Positions 7,622-13,672 of a stretch of 50,374 nucleotides of DNA are shown here, in pieces (the stretch's first letter is position 1; each line of letters begins with the position of its first letter). The stretch lies in NCBI GenBank assembly GCA_944383355.1, contig CALWPF010000012.1, positions 1 through 50,374 on the forward strand. The letters run 5' to 3'. Both the position numbers and the translations under genes were made by a program. The DNA is from an uncultured Clostridia bacterium. GTDB lineage: Bacteria > Bacillota > Clostridia > Christensenellales > UBA1242. The notes beneath the pieces are model-generated. The model saw only the letters and a program-made list of their open reading frames with translations, did not search any database and was not told where the DNA came from.

Positions 7622-8443
7622 ATGAATTATGAAAAATTAAAAGAAGATTTAGCACAAGGCTCAGTGAACATTTCTAATACTTTGGAATGGATTAAGGAAT
7701 CTGGAGATTACGATTTAAAAAAGTTAGCATCTGCAGTAATTACATCGCAAAATATAGATGCAATATTGGATTATGCTCACACGTTTAAGAGCGAAATTAC
7801 TAACTGGGATGATCTTAAATTTTTGGTACTAGATACGAATAATTTAGATAATATTGTAACTTTTGCTCTTGCTGCACCTACTGAAATGATTCCAGAATTG
7901 CAACAATCTTTTTTGGATCTTGTTAAATCAGGAAAAGCGGAGGATAATGATGTCGCTTATGGGAAGTTGTTGGATTTTGCTGCATGTGTGAAAGGAGCTG
8001 ATGTGAATACCATAGGTGATGAAGCAGTAAAATTGTTTGGTGTAGATGCAGCTGAGGACTTTGTTCGTGAAACTAATATTGACCCTAGCAGATATCTGGA
8101 TTTGGTAATCAGTACTGGTGATGTGCAAAGATATCTAACTTATGCAAAACGTATAGTAAGTTCAGGTAGAGATGTTGACACCAATGTGGAAAAATTACAA
8201 GATTTAATCATAAAGCAGGGGAGTAATGATGATATTTTAGAATTTGCACAAGAAGTTTCTTCAATGAATTCTGATGCTATGCTCGAAAAGTTAATGGTAT
8301 CTGGTAGTAAAAGAGATGTTGCTACTTTTCTAGAAATCGTAGATGACATTGATCATGATGCCATTGAATTTTTAATTGAAGATAATTCTAATGTTAAACA
8401 ATCTTCAGCCAATGACAATGGACCGACAATGATGAAGCAATAA
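7622..8443 (+). CDS. Unknown protein made of helical repeats
   Basis: 273 residues, ATG with TTGGAG upstream. The chain is almost entirely short helix pairs with a recurring core of the form L..L(I/V)..S.(D/N)...(I/L)L.(F/Y)A: residues 32-55, 65-86, 93-123, 159-179, 192-212 and 221-240. This pattern suggests an alpha-solenoid protein-binding scaffold of HEAT/ARM type. There is no signal peptide, membrane segment or catalytic motif. It is acidic and cytoplasmic by appearance. It uses GAA codons more than neighbours such as smc do. It stands alone between trhP and the convergent tmcAL. I do not recognise a named family. Confidence 0.75.
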   Translation: MNYEKLKEDLAQGSVNISNTLEWIKESGDYDLKKLASAVITSQNIDAILDYAHTFKSEITNWDDLKFLVLDTNNLDNIVTFALAAPTEMIPELQQSFLDLVKSGKAEDNDVAYGKLLDFAACVKGADVNTIGDEAVKLFGVDAAEDFVRETNIDPSRYLDLVISTGDVQRYLTYAKRIVSSGRDVDTNVEKLQDLIIKQGSNDDILEFAQEVSSMNSDAMLEKLMVSGSKRDVATFLEIVDDIDHDAIEFLIEDNSNVKQSSANDNGPTMMKQ

Positions 8444-10453: not shown

Positions 10454-11161
10454 ATGTCGTTATCAGTGTTTGATAGTTGGAGAATGTATAAACAAGAAAA
10501 GGCTCGTTTGGATGCTCAGTATGCTCAGGACGAGCTCAAGTTAATTGCTAATAATATCCTGTATGATTTGTATAAAGAGGTGAGGCGATCGCAATATGGT
10601 GAGGACAAAGGACATTTGAGCAACGCTGAGAAAATTTACCTTGACAAAATAGTTGGCTTTAGTATTATTGAGGCGGAAAGAGATATTATCGCTGCGTTAA
10701 ATGGAGCCGTAGTCGAACTTGCTAAGCAAAAAAAGTTAGTCGTTTCATTCTTAGGGGCTGGGGCAAGTTTGTTGGCAGTTAATATCATAGGAAGCTCTGT
10801 GGGGGCACTAAACCCTACAATTTCTGCGGTATCTAGCATTGCTTCAGGTGGGATAATATTATCAGCTTTTGTGTTACACCATTTCAGGAATAAAACTATT
10901 GGTGAACTTAACAAAACTGTGGATATTGCTAACGAAGTTGCGGATTACATAGATGTAGAGCGTGTGAACAAAATCAGGGAATACACCCAAAGTGTGACAG
11001 GTGGAGACAGTATAATATTTGATGAAATGGAGCCATTTTTAGTTACTGGTACGATTGAAACATTGGAGGAAAGGTATAAACAAGAATACCCAGACAAATT
11101 TGTTAATAAGGCAACTAGTCCTGATTGTGATAATAGTAATTTTATTAGTTACTATACTTAG
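10454..11161 (+). CDS. Membrane protein of unknown function, first of a tandem paralogous pair
   Basis: 235 residues, ATG with AGGAG. The N-terminal helical part carries charged, coiled-coil-like sequence (KQEKARLDAQYAQDELKLI). Two hydrophobic segments follow (VVSFLGAGASLLAVNIIGSS near 96-115 and ISAVSSIASGGIILSAFVLH near 124-143), then a second soluble helical region. It shares a ground plan with the next gene: a Y.VYR.S.G..G.L....YLDK..G-like stretch, a membrane hairpin, and a C-terminal ETLEERYKQE motif matched by DNMEERYKTE in the neighbour. This indicates an old tandem duplication. I do not recognise the family. Confidence 0.75.
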   Translation: MSLSVFDSWRMYKQEKARLDAQYAQDELKLIANNILYDLYKEVRRSQYGEDKGHLSNAEKIYLDKIVGFSIIEAERDIIAALNGAVVELAKQKKLVVSFLGAGASLLAVNIIGSSVGALNPTISAVSSIASGGIILSAFVLHHFRNKTIGELNKTVDIANEVADYIDVERVNKIREYTQSVTGGDSIIFDEMEPFLVTGTIETLEERYKQEYPDKFVNKATSPDCDNSNFISYYT

Positions 11162-11194
11162 TTTTACGAAATATTGTATCTTGGAGGTCGTGTA

Positions 11195-11890
11195 GTGGTA
11201 GGCATAGATGTTTTAAAAGATTGGAAGGCAAAGCGAACGGAGCGAAAGAGGGCAGAATATGAAAAGAAACAGTCTGTGATTCAAAAAGATGTTTTTGAGG
11301 CAGTATACACGGTATATCAAACTACGAGAGTATCTGTTTTTGGTACAGAAAAAGGTGAGTTAACTCAAGTAGATCGATATATGCTGGATAAAATGTTTGG
11401 TTTAGCAATATTTACGGTTAGTATGAATATTGGTGAAAAACTGAGCGTGATTGATAAAGAATTGACGAAGAGGACTAAGTTAGCTGCTGTATTAACTATT
11501 GGTTCTGGTGCAGTTTTGGGTGCATCTTTGGCAACTTTTATAGCGAATTCAGACAACACACTTGCTGCAATCTTGAGTGGGATTTCTGCCACGACTTTTG
11601 TGATTGGCAATTGTTGGGCAAAAAAGCTTTCGTTGTCTGGTACAGCGCTCAATGACAGTGTTGCTTTTGTTGGAGAAATGTTTAACTATCTAGAGCAAAA
11701 ACAAATATCAACGATTGAGCAATTTATAATGAATCCTGATGATATGAGTGATAGTATGCCACAATTTATTGCAGATGGAATCTTGGACAATATGGAGGAA
11801 CGTTACAAGACGGAGAACCAACAGTTATTTAACGGGAAAAATGTTAATAATACGTATGCAGATGATAAATATTCATTTATTTATGCTTAA
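11195..11890 (+). CDS. Membrane protein of unknown function, second of a tandem paralogous pair
   Basis: 231 residues. An upstream in-frame TTG at 11174 is possible, but GGAGG at 11183-11187 sits 7 nt before the GTG at 11195, which I take as the start. The basic N-terminus (KAKRTERKRAEYEKKQ) is followed by a helical segment with YMLDKMFGLAIFTV, two hydrophobic segments near 95-140 (LAAVLTIGSGAVLGASLATF, LAAILSGISATTFVIGNCW), and a C-terminal helical part with GILDNMEERYKTE. The order of elements matches the preceding gene, from which it is separated by 33 nt. Both probably form a two-gene operon ended by the terminator at 11898. The function is unknown; the two could form a heteromeric membrane complex. 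Confidence 0.75.
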   Translation: MVGIDVLKDWKAKRTERKRAEYEKKQSVIQKDVFEAVYTVYQTTRVSVFGTEKGELTQVDRYMLDKMFGLAIFTVSMNIGEKLSVIDKELTKRTKLAAVLTIGSGAVLGASLATFIANSDNTLAAILSGISATTFVIGNCWAKKLSLSGTALNDSVAFVGEMFNYLEQKQISTIEQFIMNPDDMSDSMPQFIADGILDNMEERYKTENQQLFNGKNVNNTYADDKYSFIYA

Positions 11891-11937: not shown

Positions 11938-11966
11938 TTGATATATAGTGTGCGTTATGATATAAT
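11938..11966 (+). promoter_or_regulatory. Strong promoter for the mTERF-like operon
   Basis: TTGATA (11938-11943), 17-bp spacer, TATAAT (11961-11966) with TGA directly before it as an extended -10. It lies 29 nt upstream of the first gene's start. Confidence 0.82.
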
Positions 11967-11995
11967 GGCAAAAATACATTGGAGGTTGGGTTATC

Positions 11996-12487
11996 ATGTT
12001 TACATACAAAATTTTGACAAGTCGTGAGCAGAATAAGGAAACAGAAATTACTACAGCATCTACTATAGAGCCAAGTATATTAGCCACAATGATACCTAGG
12101 GCAAGGCTTGATACTTTTGAGAGCGATAGTATTGGGCTGGCTCTATATCTCACTATGGATGGAGAGATTGTCTTGGATACCAATACAGCTCTGGTAACAA
12201 AAGGCGCTAGCGATATGCGCAAATATGCTTTGTTGCATCCTAATTGGCATAGGGTTATATTTGTTACAGGAGACCCTGCTTTGTTTACTCTGGATATATT
12301 GAAACAATTGCGTTCCTATATAGATGTACGTGTTCTCAAGATTCCACTCAAGAGATTTCAGCGACTTGTGCTCAAGAATGATAGACAAATTGTTATATAT
12401 GCTAACATAATCAAGCAATTATTGATGGTGATGGGCATTCAATTACACAAAGATTTAACAACTGGTAAAGGTGGTTCTACAAAGTGA
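11996..12487 (+). CDS. Unknown 163-residue protein coupled to the mTERF-like gene
   Basis: ATG with TTGGAGG about 10 nt upstream. It is a soluble alpha/beta protein. The middle (GEIVLDTNTALV at 57-68 and RVIFVTGDPALFTLDIL at 86-102, then IDVRVLKIP) has the look of a compact nucleotide- or metal-binding fold. The LDTN...TGD pairing is reminiscent of PIN-domain nucleases, but the spacing is too short for a standard PIN domain, so I treat this as a weak resemblance. The C-terminal 45 residues are basic. Its stop overlaps the next gene's GTG by 4 nt, which implies translational coupling and a shared task with the mTERF-like protein. Confidence 0.72.
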   Translation: MFTYKILTSREQNKETEITTASTIEPSILATMIPRARLDTFESDSIGLALYLTMDGEIVLDTNTALVTKGASDMRKYALLHPNWHRVIFVTGDPALFTLDILKQLRSYIDVRVLKIPLKRFQRLVLKNDRQIVIYANIIKQLLMVMGIQLHKDLTTGKGGSTK

Positions 12488-13527
12488 TTAATGAGCAAGA
12501 ATTGATGCAGGTTTTGCCTATATCCAGCAATTTGGCGCATAAAATCTTAAATAGTACTAATGTTAAATTGGTTCCGCCAGAATTACTTGTTAGCCGTTGG
12601 TCCTTTTACAAGGATATTTTTGGTCTAGATGATGCACAAATGGCAAAAGTACTAGAGCGTTCTATGGCTTTGCTCACTTATGATTGTGAGACGGATAGCC
12701 CAACTAGTGTGCGTTCTAAGATTGATTTTTTTGAAAAGGTATTAGGTTTTACACATCAAGATTTTACTGAGATGTTTGTATCATTTCCTGCCATACTAAG
12801 TTATAGTACTGTCAATCAAGATGCATTAATTGGTAAAATAAATTATTTCAAAAATACATTTGGGTATACTAATGCTGAGTTAAGAAAGTTATTGCACAAT
12901 AGACCTTATATACTTGGTTATGATTGTACGTCCAAGAGTCCTACAAGCATACCTGCCAAGATTACTAAATATGCTGAATTGTTGAATGTCGATGAGAGTG
13001 TAGTAAAAGATTTGATAAAACGTGTGCCAACACTGCTAGATTATGATTGTTTTAGTAATAGCAACACATCTGTCTCTACCAAAATAACGTATCTACAGCA
13101 AATGGGATTTGATAGCTCATTTATTGTGGAGGATCCAAGCATATTAGGTGCAAATATGAAAAAAATAAAGTTTAGGTATATGTTGCTTTCTACCATATTG
13201 TTTGATAATCAGTTTACGCACTCAAAGTGGTTTGCCTATGATGAATCAAAGATTTATGCAAGATATAAATATTGTTTAAATAATTGTATCCCATATACTT
13301 TTAGCACGCTGGTAAAGGGGTCTAATGATATTTTGAATCCTATAGATGATTTGGTAAAAAAATATCCTATCACGCCAGATGTAGTAGTTGAGATAGAGGC
13401 AAAGTACCATGCATTGACAAATAAAAAATTAGATAACTCACTCAATAAGAATGCTCATTCAATCAAAAATAATTTTATGGCTTTAGACTTGTCCAATGAT
13501 GAGCGTTCTGCCGTGGTCAAATCTTAA
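12484..13527 (+). CDS. Protein with mTERF-like helical repeats
   Basis: 347 residues, GTG start with AAAGGTGG 9 nt upstream and a 4-nt overlap with the previous gene. Five repeats of about 36-41 residues run from residue 36 to about 240. Each has a helix ending in a P..(I/L)L core (PAIL 102-105, PYIL 141-144, PTLL 182-185, PSIL 218-221; the first repeat has MALL at 61-64), then a linker such as YDCTSKSPTS, then a K(I).(Y/F)....(L/F)G(F/Y) helix. This is the signature of mTERF repeats, a right-handed superhelix that binds nucleic acid and is known mainly from mitochondria and chloroplasts. The C-terminal part (KIYARYKYCLNNCIPY and beyond) is also mTERF-like and basic. The role is inferred: DNA or RNA binding, perhaps in transcription or ribosome assembly. 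Confidence 0.78.
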   Translation: MINEQELMQVLPISSNLAHKILNSTNVKLVPPELLVSRWSFYKDIFGLDDAQMAKVLERSMALLTYDCETDSPTSVRSKIDFFEKVLGFTHQDFTEMFVSFPAILSYSTVNQDALIGKINYFKNTFGYTNAELRKLLHNRPYILGYDCTSKSPTSIPAKITKYAELLNVDESVVKDLIKRVPTLLDYDCFSNSNTSVSTKITYLQQMGFDSSFIVEDPSILGANMKKIKFRYMLLSTILFDNQFTHSKWFAYDESKIYARYKYCLNNCIPYTFSTLVKGSNDILNPIDDLVKKYPITPDVVVEIEAKYHALTNKKLDNSLNKNAHSIKNNFMALDLSNDERSAVVKS

Positions 13528-13550
13528 GATATTAAATGCTAAAATCCAAG

Positions 13551-13571
13551 AGAGTAGTAGTACTCTTTTTT
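13551..13571 (+). terminator. Terminator after the mTERF-like operon
   Basis: Stem AGAGTA / TACTCT with loop GTAG, followed by a T run. Confidence 0.82.
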
Positions 13572-13672
13572 GTTTTACAAAATTCAAATTCTATAGGGCG
13601 TCATAGTAAAAATTTTACAATATTTAATTAAACAAAAAATATATGCAAAACCTACAATTTTGCCTTATTTAT

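Follow-up and report, generated by a model that had tools for sequence, protein, structure and literature searches.

A pTERF-type mTERF protein encoded on a Clostridia contig, and bacterial relatives whose repeat arrays vary at candidate DNA-reading positions

The mTERF proteins, which regulate mitochondrial and chloroplast genes, are regarded as eukaryotic organelle factors. The existence of bacterial kin was an open question until 2024, when Hu et al. (NAR; PMC11417379) gave the first description of pTERFs, bacterial mTERF relatives which carry 3-11 tandem mTERF-like units and come from metagenome-assembled genomes, mostly of Bacillota. Nanomolar, sequence-specific binding of double-stranded DNA (dsDNA) was experimentally established for two of them: pTERF1 binds ACTNNNAGTC with a Kd of 1.87 nM, and pTERF2 binds a different motif. 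That study reported identities of 9-18% without obvious similarity in sequence, and its main text mentions neither an operon nor a mini partner protein (PMC11417379). Here we analyzed a 50,374-nt stretch (contig CALWPF010000012.1 of assembly GCA_944383355.1, forward strand; hereafter “the window”) from an uncultured, gut-type Clostridia bacterium of the order Christensenellales, in which the gene at 12484-13527 encodes a 347-aa protein with mTERF repeats. A first-pass annotation, made from the letters alone, had read this gene as a bacterial mTERF which, with an obligate small partner encoded just upstream, would form a new system.

The 347-aa protein has five tandem mTERF motifs, and the motif proline is kept in four of the five. 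The first-pass annotation had correctly described P..(I/L)L cores at residues 102, 141, 182 and 218 that alternate with K(I).(F/Y) helices; the helices begin at residues 79, 118, 159 and 200. A fifth core stands at residue 61, where M replaces P, so that the core-to-core spacings are 41, 39, 41 and 36, and repeat 5 aligns with the last motif of human MTERF1 (NPRVL, R350). The gene and its parts are as follows:

12484..13527, + strand: pTERF-type bacterial mTERF protein of 347 aa (PF02536, AlphaFold model, fold matches)
12595..12717, + strand: mTERF repeat 1, residues 38-78, core M61-ALLTY (sequence; three helices in the model)
12718..12834, + strand: mTERF repeat 2, residues 79-117, core P102-AILSY (sequence; model)
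12835..12957, + strand: mTERF repeat 3, residues 118-158, core P141-YILGY (sequence; model)
12958..13080, + strand: mTERF repeat 4, residues 159-199, core P182-TLLDY (sequence; model)
13081..13167, + strand: mTERF repeat 5, residues 200-228, core P218-SILGA (sequence; model)
13168..13434, + strand: C-terminal helical domain, residues 229-317, RYMLLS...KIYARYKY...YPIT (conserved in the 15-member alignment)

Three kinds of match support the family call: i) the Pfam mTERF profile PF02536 matches residues 46-236 with 61 bits against a cut-off of 23.1; ii) an AlphaFold (AF2) model (m649c01c269a7; pLDDT 88.4, pTM 0.80), built on an alignment of the window protein and 14 relatives (A1) that also underlies our family profile, is composed of three-helix units forming a superhelix, for which VIA-align placed human MTERF1 and MTERF3 at the top (Z 15.7, 255-266 residues, rmsd 3.9-4.3); iii) searched against PDB sequences, the A1 profile retrieved MTERF3 (E 1.1e-17) and MTERF1 (E 1.9e-15), the matches reaching into the last motif. 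The nine Foldseek matches at E <=0.001 were MTERF3, DNA-bound MTERF1 and chain mS93 of the Tetrahymena mitoribosome, which the A1 profile found as well. Lower in the VIA-align list stood mitoribosomal and MTERF4 chains (Z about 10) and TAL effectors (Z 5-7). A TALE-like family was rejected on these scores, which lie within the tool-stated background for helical repeats, the list bearing only on the helical-repeat families shown in it. By profile match, fold match and profile-to-PDB sequence match, mTERF homology therefore holds: as judged from profiles and the model, the 347-aa protein is a true mTERF homologue in both sequence and fold, which goes further than Hu et al. (PMC11417379). The outcome that the first-pass annotation had named as refuting, a predicted structure lacking the half-doughnut mTERF superhelix or a significant match solely to another helical-repeat family, did not arise.

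The model predicts a five-motif superhelix like that of MTERF1 and MTERF3, followed by a C-terminal helical domain which is conserved among the bacterial members (53 of the 56 non-edge bacterial family ORFs score >20 bits for this domain). Organellar mTERFs are nuclear-encoded and imported; this gene has rpmF, plsX, smc and ftsY around it on a contig of a bacterial chromosome, and its tandem mTERF-like repeats in a bacterial genome are those of a pTERF.

Relatives at six loci (L084, L091, L109, L145, L146 and L147) carry arrays of near-identical units, the array of L084 having 8 units that are 82% identical; the genomes of all relatives are drafts, in which such arrays may be misassembled. Counted from the motif proline (P), within-array variation was highest at P+4, P-17, P+1 and P-10, and the codon classes at P+1/P+4 in the six arrays were 24 non-synonymous versus 2 synonymous. 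Non-synonymous classes were enriched at P-2/P+1/P+4 relative to the remaining repeat positions (six arrays, Fisher p 0.0007; four independent arrays, 0.004), p-values that are only indicative because these positions, although taken from MTERF1, were chosen after the entropy table had been seen. Random position triples reached the P-2/P+1/P+4 sum in 0.8% of draws for the six arrays and in 0.3% for the four independent ones. The orthologues L109 and L145, which are 95% identical, differ at candidate reading residues in their middle units, and L147, from another species, has one repeat unit more.

To relate these positions to MTERF1, its numbering was placed on the PDB sequences from the A1 profile alignment and checked. 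On the repeat frame R202, F243 and R350 of MTERF1 correspond to P+1, F322 to P+4 and R162 to P-2, and R251 and Y288 to +9 (Y288 counted from A279); in the MTERF1 structures F243, Y288 and F322 stack on or support flipped bases. MTERF1 substitution mutants are present in the PDB. The arginines of MTERF1 read bases directly and its prolines line the major groove (PMC4705650). In the near-identical arrays P+1/P+4, the counterparts of MTERF1 base-contact positions, are among the positions that vary most, and they do so almost only by amino-acid changes, which is new as far as we found. When the arrays were compared with the TALE-like pattern of few variable residues, using sequence data alone, the variable positions coincided with MTERF1 base contacts and showed the non-synonymous excess. 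In the window protein the residues at P+1/P+4/P+5 of repeats 1 to 5 are A-T-Y, A-S-Y, Y-G-Y, T-D-Y and S-G-A.

Relatives share a partner gene that differs from the one next to the window gene: it encodes a “mini-pTERF” of 92-110 aa (~95 aa), equivalent to about two mTERF repeats and ending in (D/N)PF.I, and the copy at L084 matches PF02536 with 25 bits. We counted 35 strong copies in 32 genomes (L084:3998-4279, L089:4185-4469, the copy 3' of the L109 pTERF, and 32 others). On the same strand a pTERF gene precedes 33 of them directly, at a distance of -11 to +44 nt; two copies (G053:C8 and G078:C2) lie away from any pTERF that was found. A search of the window genome returned no mini-pTERF, downstream or elsewhere. 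In the tree of C-terminal domains the window copy, which lacks the mini-pTERF, sits on a long branch, and the mini-pTERF occurs on both sides of the midpoint; it is therefore probably old and was lost several times. This conserved partner is likewise new as far as we found.

Of 98 genomes sampled from the same family 21 matched the Pfam model, as did six of 297 genomes of the order, all six from that family; among 398 genomes of the phylum just two passed the cut-off, the genome of the window itself and a borderline one (23.5 bits with its neighbours). The A1 profile matched 59 of 309 family genomes, 51 of them at E <1e-10 and in 17 of 42 genera; named genome records that hold relatives belong to uncultured Clostridia and Firmicutes and, in one case, to Christensenella. 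Neither of the two other genomes of the genus has a pTERF; both keep plsX-smc, preceded by unrelated genes. In another genus the pTERF at L084 likewise stands directly before plsX. Copies from different genera intermix in the tree, and in the loci read the neighbours are mostly housekeeping genes, not defence islands. Genome contigs yielded no relatives to the window protein alone and matches to the alignment of relatives. A search of viral contigs with the window protein alone, which is weak and reaches close relatives only, found no relative, and the defence-system families of PADLOC gave no match. The pTERF is thus patchy within one bacterial family and nearly absent outside it, a distribution also new as far as we found.

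Some family loci hold further mTERF-like proteins. Two giant pTERF relatives (L112:434-3337, 967 aa; L113:6868-9546, 892 aa) have two or three copies of the C-terminal domain each. At L111:7619-8755, tightly packed between large genes of no assigned function, a weak mTERF-like protein (21 bits, just below the Pfam cut-off) lacks the pTERF C-terminal domain.

In the window the pTERF gene is the second of a pair: a 163-aa ORF (11996-12487, ATG start) and the 347-aa ORF (12484-13527, GTG start) overlap by 4 nt (GTGA), exactly as first annotated, and Pfam confirmed the surrounding rpmF, plsX, smc and ftsY. The in-frame codon scores of both ORFs resemble those of known neighbour genes, and both are real genes by codon use. 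The elements around the pTERF gene are:

11938..11966, + strand: predicted promoter-like site of sigma-70 type, TTGATA-17-TATAAT with extended -10 (consensus scan, 11/12 matches, TG before the -10)
11983..11987, + strand: GGAGG ribosome-binding site of the 163-aa gene (direct sequence reading)
11996..12487, + strand: orphan protein of 163 aa, upstream gene of the pair (codon score)
13548..13575, + strand: terminator-like hairpin with T-rich tail (RNA fold)

The first-pass annotation gave the pair its own extended -10 promoter and terminator. The extended -10 promoter-like site is strong, and the RNA at 13548-13569 folds into a 9-bp hairpin (-11.8 kcal/mol, z -2.9) followed by a T-rich tail, which the consensus terminator scan missed because it has too few G-C pairs. 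The scan found 11 promoter-like sites where 9.4 were expected, so that only strength and place argue for the site at 11938-11966.

The 163-aa protein had no match in Pfam, NCBIfam, PHROGs or PADLOC, and no significant relative either in its two genus mates or among the 98 genomes of the family, where mTERF genes are present in 21; a single weak match, in its own genome, falls in a stop-ridden frame. Its single-sequence model (pLDDT 37) is not interpretable. A spurious ORF was ruled out, the in-frame codon score equalling that of known genes, and so was a conserved mTERF partner, relatives being absent from the family genomes and the genus mates; the gene is a coding orphan. The obligate small partner of the first-pass annotation thus fell away, and so did its main claim of novelty, because Hu et al. 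(PMC11417379) had already described pTERFs; what it had observed was confirmed, and its interpretation was partly supported.

Nearby in the window are other proteins of no assigned role. Just upstream, 10454-11161 and 11174-11890 encode adjacent hypothetical membrane-type paralogues (26% identity, E 9e-20), for which the only family match was a weak holin-like PHROG match of the second protein (E 0.013). The 273-aa protein at 7622-8443 has no assigned family, looks all-helical and repeat-like by sequence, and gave only sub-threshold Pfam matches.

We consider it probable that the window gene encodes a pTERF-type mTERF acting as a transcription regulator that binds dsDNA in the major groove through repeats which can be re-targeted. 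Its superhelix would track the dsDNA major groove as human MTERF1 does, and the residues at P-2, P+1 and P+4 beside each motif proline would read bases, so that about five motifs would define a short specific site. Bound there, the protein may act on transcription, most likely as a roadblock, a pausing or terminating factor, or a repressor; chloroplast MDA1/mTERF5, which binds dsDNA and causes plastid transcriptional pausing, provides a precedent (PMC7909791). Arrays would be re-targeted in evolution by repeat duplication, deletion and exchange and by changes of the reading residues. Elsewhere a mini-pTERF encoded directly downstream would serve as cofactor; the window genome has the unrelated 163-aa gene in the operon instead. 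More tentatively, pTERFs in general could be modular re-targetable DNA readers, in which P+1/P+4 (with P-2/P-1/P+5) specify bases, the arrays turn over as in TALEs, and a two-repeat mini-pTERF from the same operon is the cofactor, lost in the window genome and possibly replaced by the 163-aa orphan. Several points weigh against the regulator reading: i) dsDNA binding is experimentally established for pTERF1 and pTERF2, and for the window protein it is drawn by analogy; ii) action on native transcription is a proposal for every pTERF; iii) the surface positions P-17 and P-10 vary too, so that variation alone is no proof of base reading; iv) the window copy, on its long branch, has diverged repeats of its own and no mini-pTERF.

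The main rival to DNA reading is RNA binding, in which the window protein would serve ribosome assembly or RNA processing like MTERF3, MTERF4 and many plant mTERFs. MTERF3 ties with MTERF1 as the best fold match, the mitoribosomal mTERF chains rank next, and MTERF3 and MTERF4 act in mitoribosome assembly; the position among core genes would suit such a role. We nevertheless judge it unlikely, as the two published pTERFs select dsDNA motifs (PMC11417379), variation peaks at the MTERF1 DNA-reading positions, and, unlike an assembly factor, the gene is missing in the other two genus members and in most family genomes. Were pTERFs fast-evolving arrays directed against mobile DNA or phages, this defence or silencing role would account for the patchiness (strong matches in 51 of 309 genomes) and the repeat turnover, and it would agree with the repeat exchange, the non-synonymous excess at reading positions and the mixing of genera in the tree. 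PADLOC and a viral-contig search that reaches close relatives only gave nothing in its favour, however, and the mostly housekeeping neighbours in the loci read point the other way, which makes this role quite improbable.

Two further alternatives concern where the repeats come from. TAL effectors do appear in the structural list, and a different helical-repeat family (TALE-like or designed-repeat-like) could resemble mTERFs by convergence; yet the curated mTERF profile, the profile-to-PDB matches to MTERF1/3 and a Z of 15.7 versus <7 for TALEs leave this hardly credible, and as judged by the profile matches it is refuted in practice. Since mTERFs are otherwise eukaryotic organelle proteins, contamination or recent transfer from a eukaryote might be suspected. 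It is very improbable for a gene that shares its contig with bacterial rpmF, plsX, smc and ftsY, shows the local codon usage and has relatives in 17 genera of one bacterial family, one of them directly before plsX in another genus. On these grounds contamination is refuted; an ancient transfer from a eukaryote may have occurred.

Now that both sequence and fold speak for true bacterial mTERFs, the question of where the family arose can be tested. Furthermore, near-identical arrays varying at base-contact positions are natural material for learning how mTERF repeats read DNA, and pTERF arrays could possibly become a programmable DNA-binding scaffold. The conserved mini-pTERF is a concrete co-expression partner, unmentioned in the published binding assays (PMC11417379).

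Among known systems, human MTERF1 (PDB 3mva, 5crk) shares with the window protein the three-helix superhelix, the proline-lined groove and the motif spacing, with a Z of 15.3-15.7 and a profile E near 2e-15. It differs in being an organelle protein with eight motifs for which base flipping is shown, whereas the window protein has five motifs plus the bacterial C-terminal domain, at about 17% identity. Human MTERF3 (PDB 3m66), which ties as best match, and MTERF4 have the same fold; they differ in what they do, repressing mitochondrial transcription and serving ribosome biogenesis, and MTERF4 pairs with NSUN4, no methyltransferase partner being seen at the window locus. TAL effectors and BurrH would be alike, if the modular reading holds, in near-identical repeats with few variable residues and in array length and order that shift between relatives; they are a separate repeat family (Z 5-7 only), and the window protein has neither an RVD loop nor a demonstrated one-repeat-one-base code. 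The pTERFs (PMC11417379), with pTERF1 and pTERF2 compared by their published descriptions, are alike in tandem mTERF-annotated repeats, in their origin from uncultured Clostridia/Bacillota and in AF2 three-helix units like those of MTERF1; the window protein differs in that the motif proline is kept and its profiles match MTERF1/3 directly.
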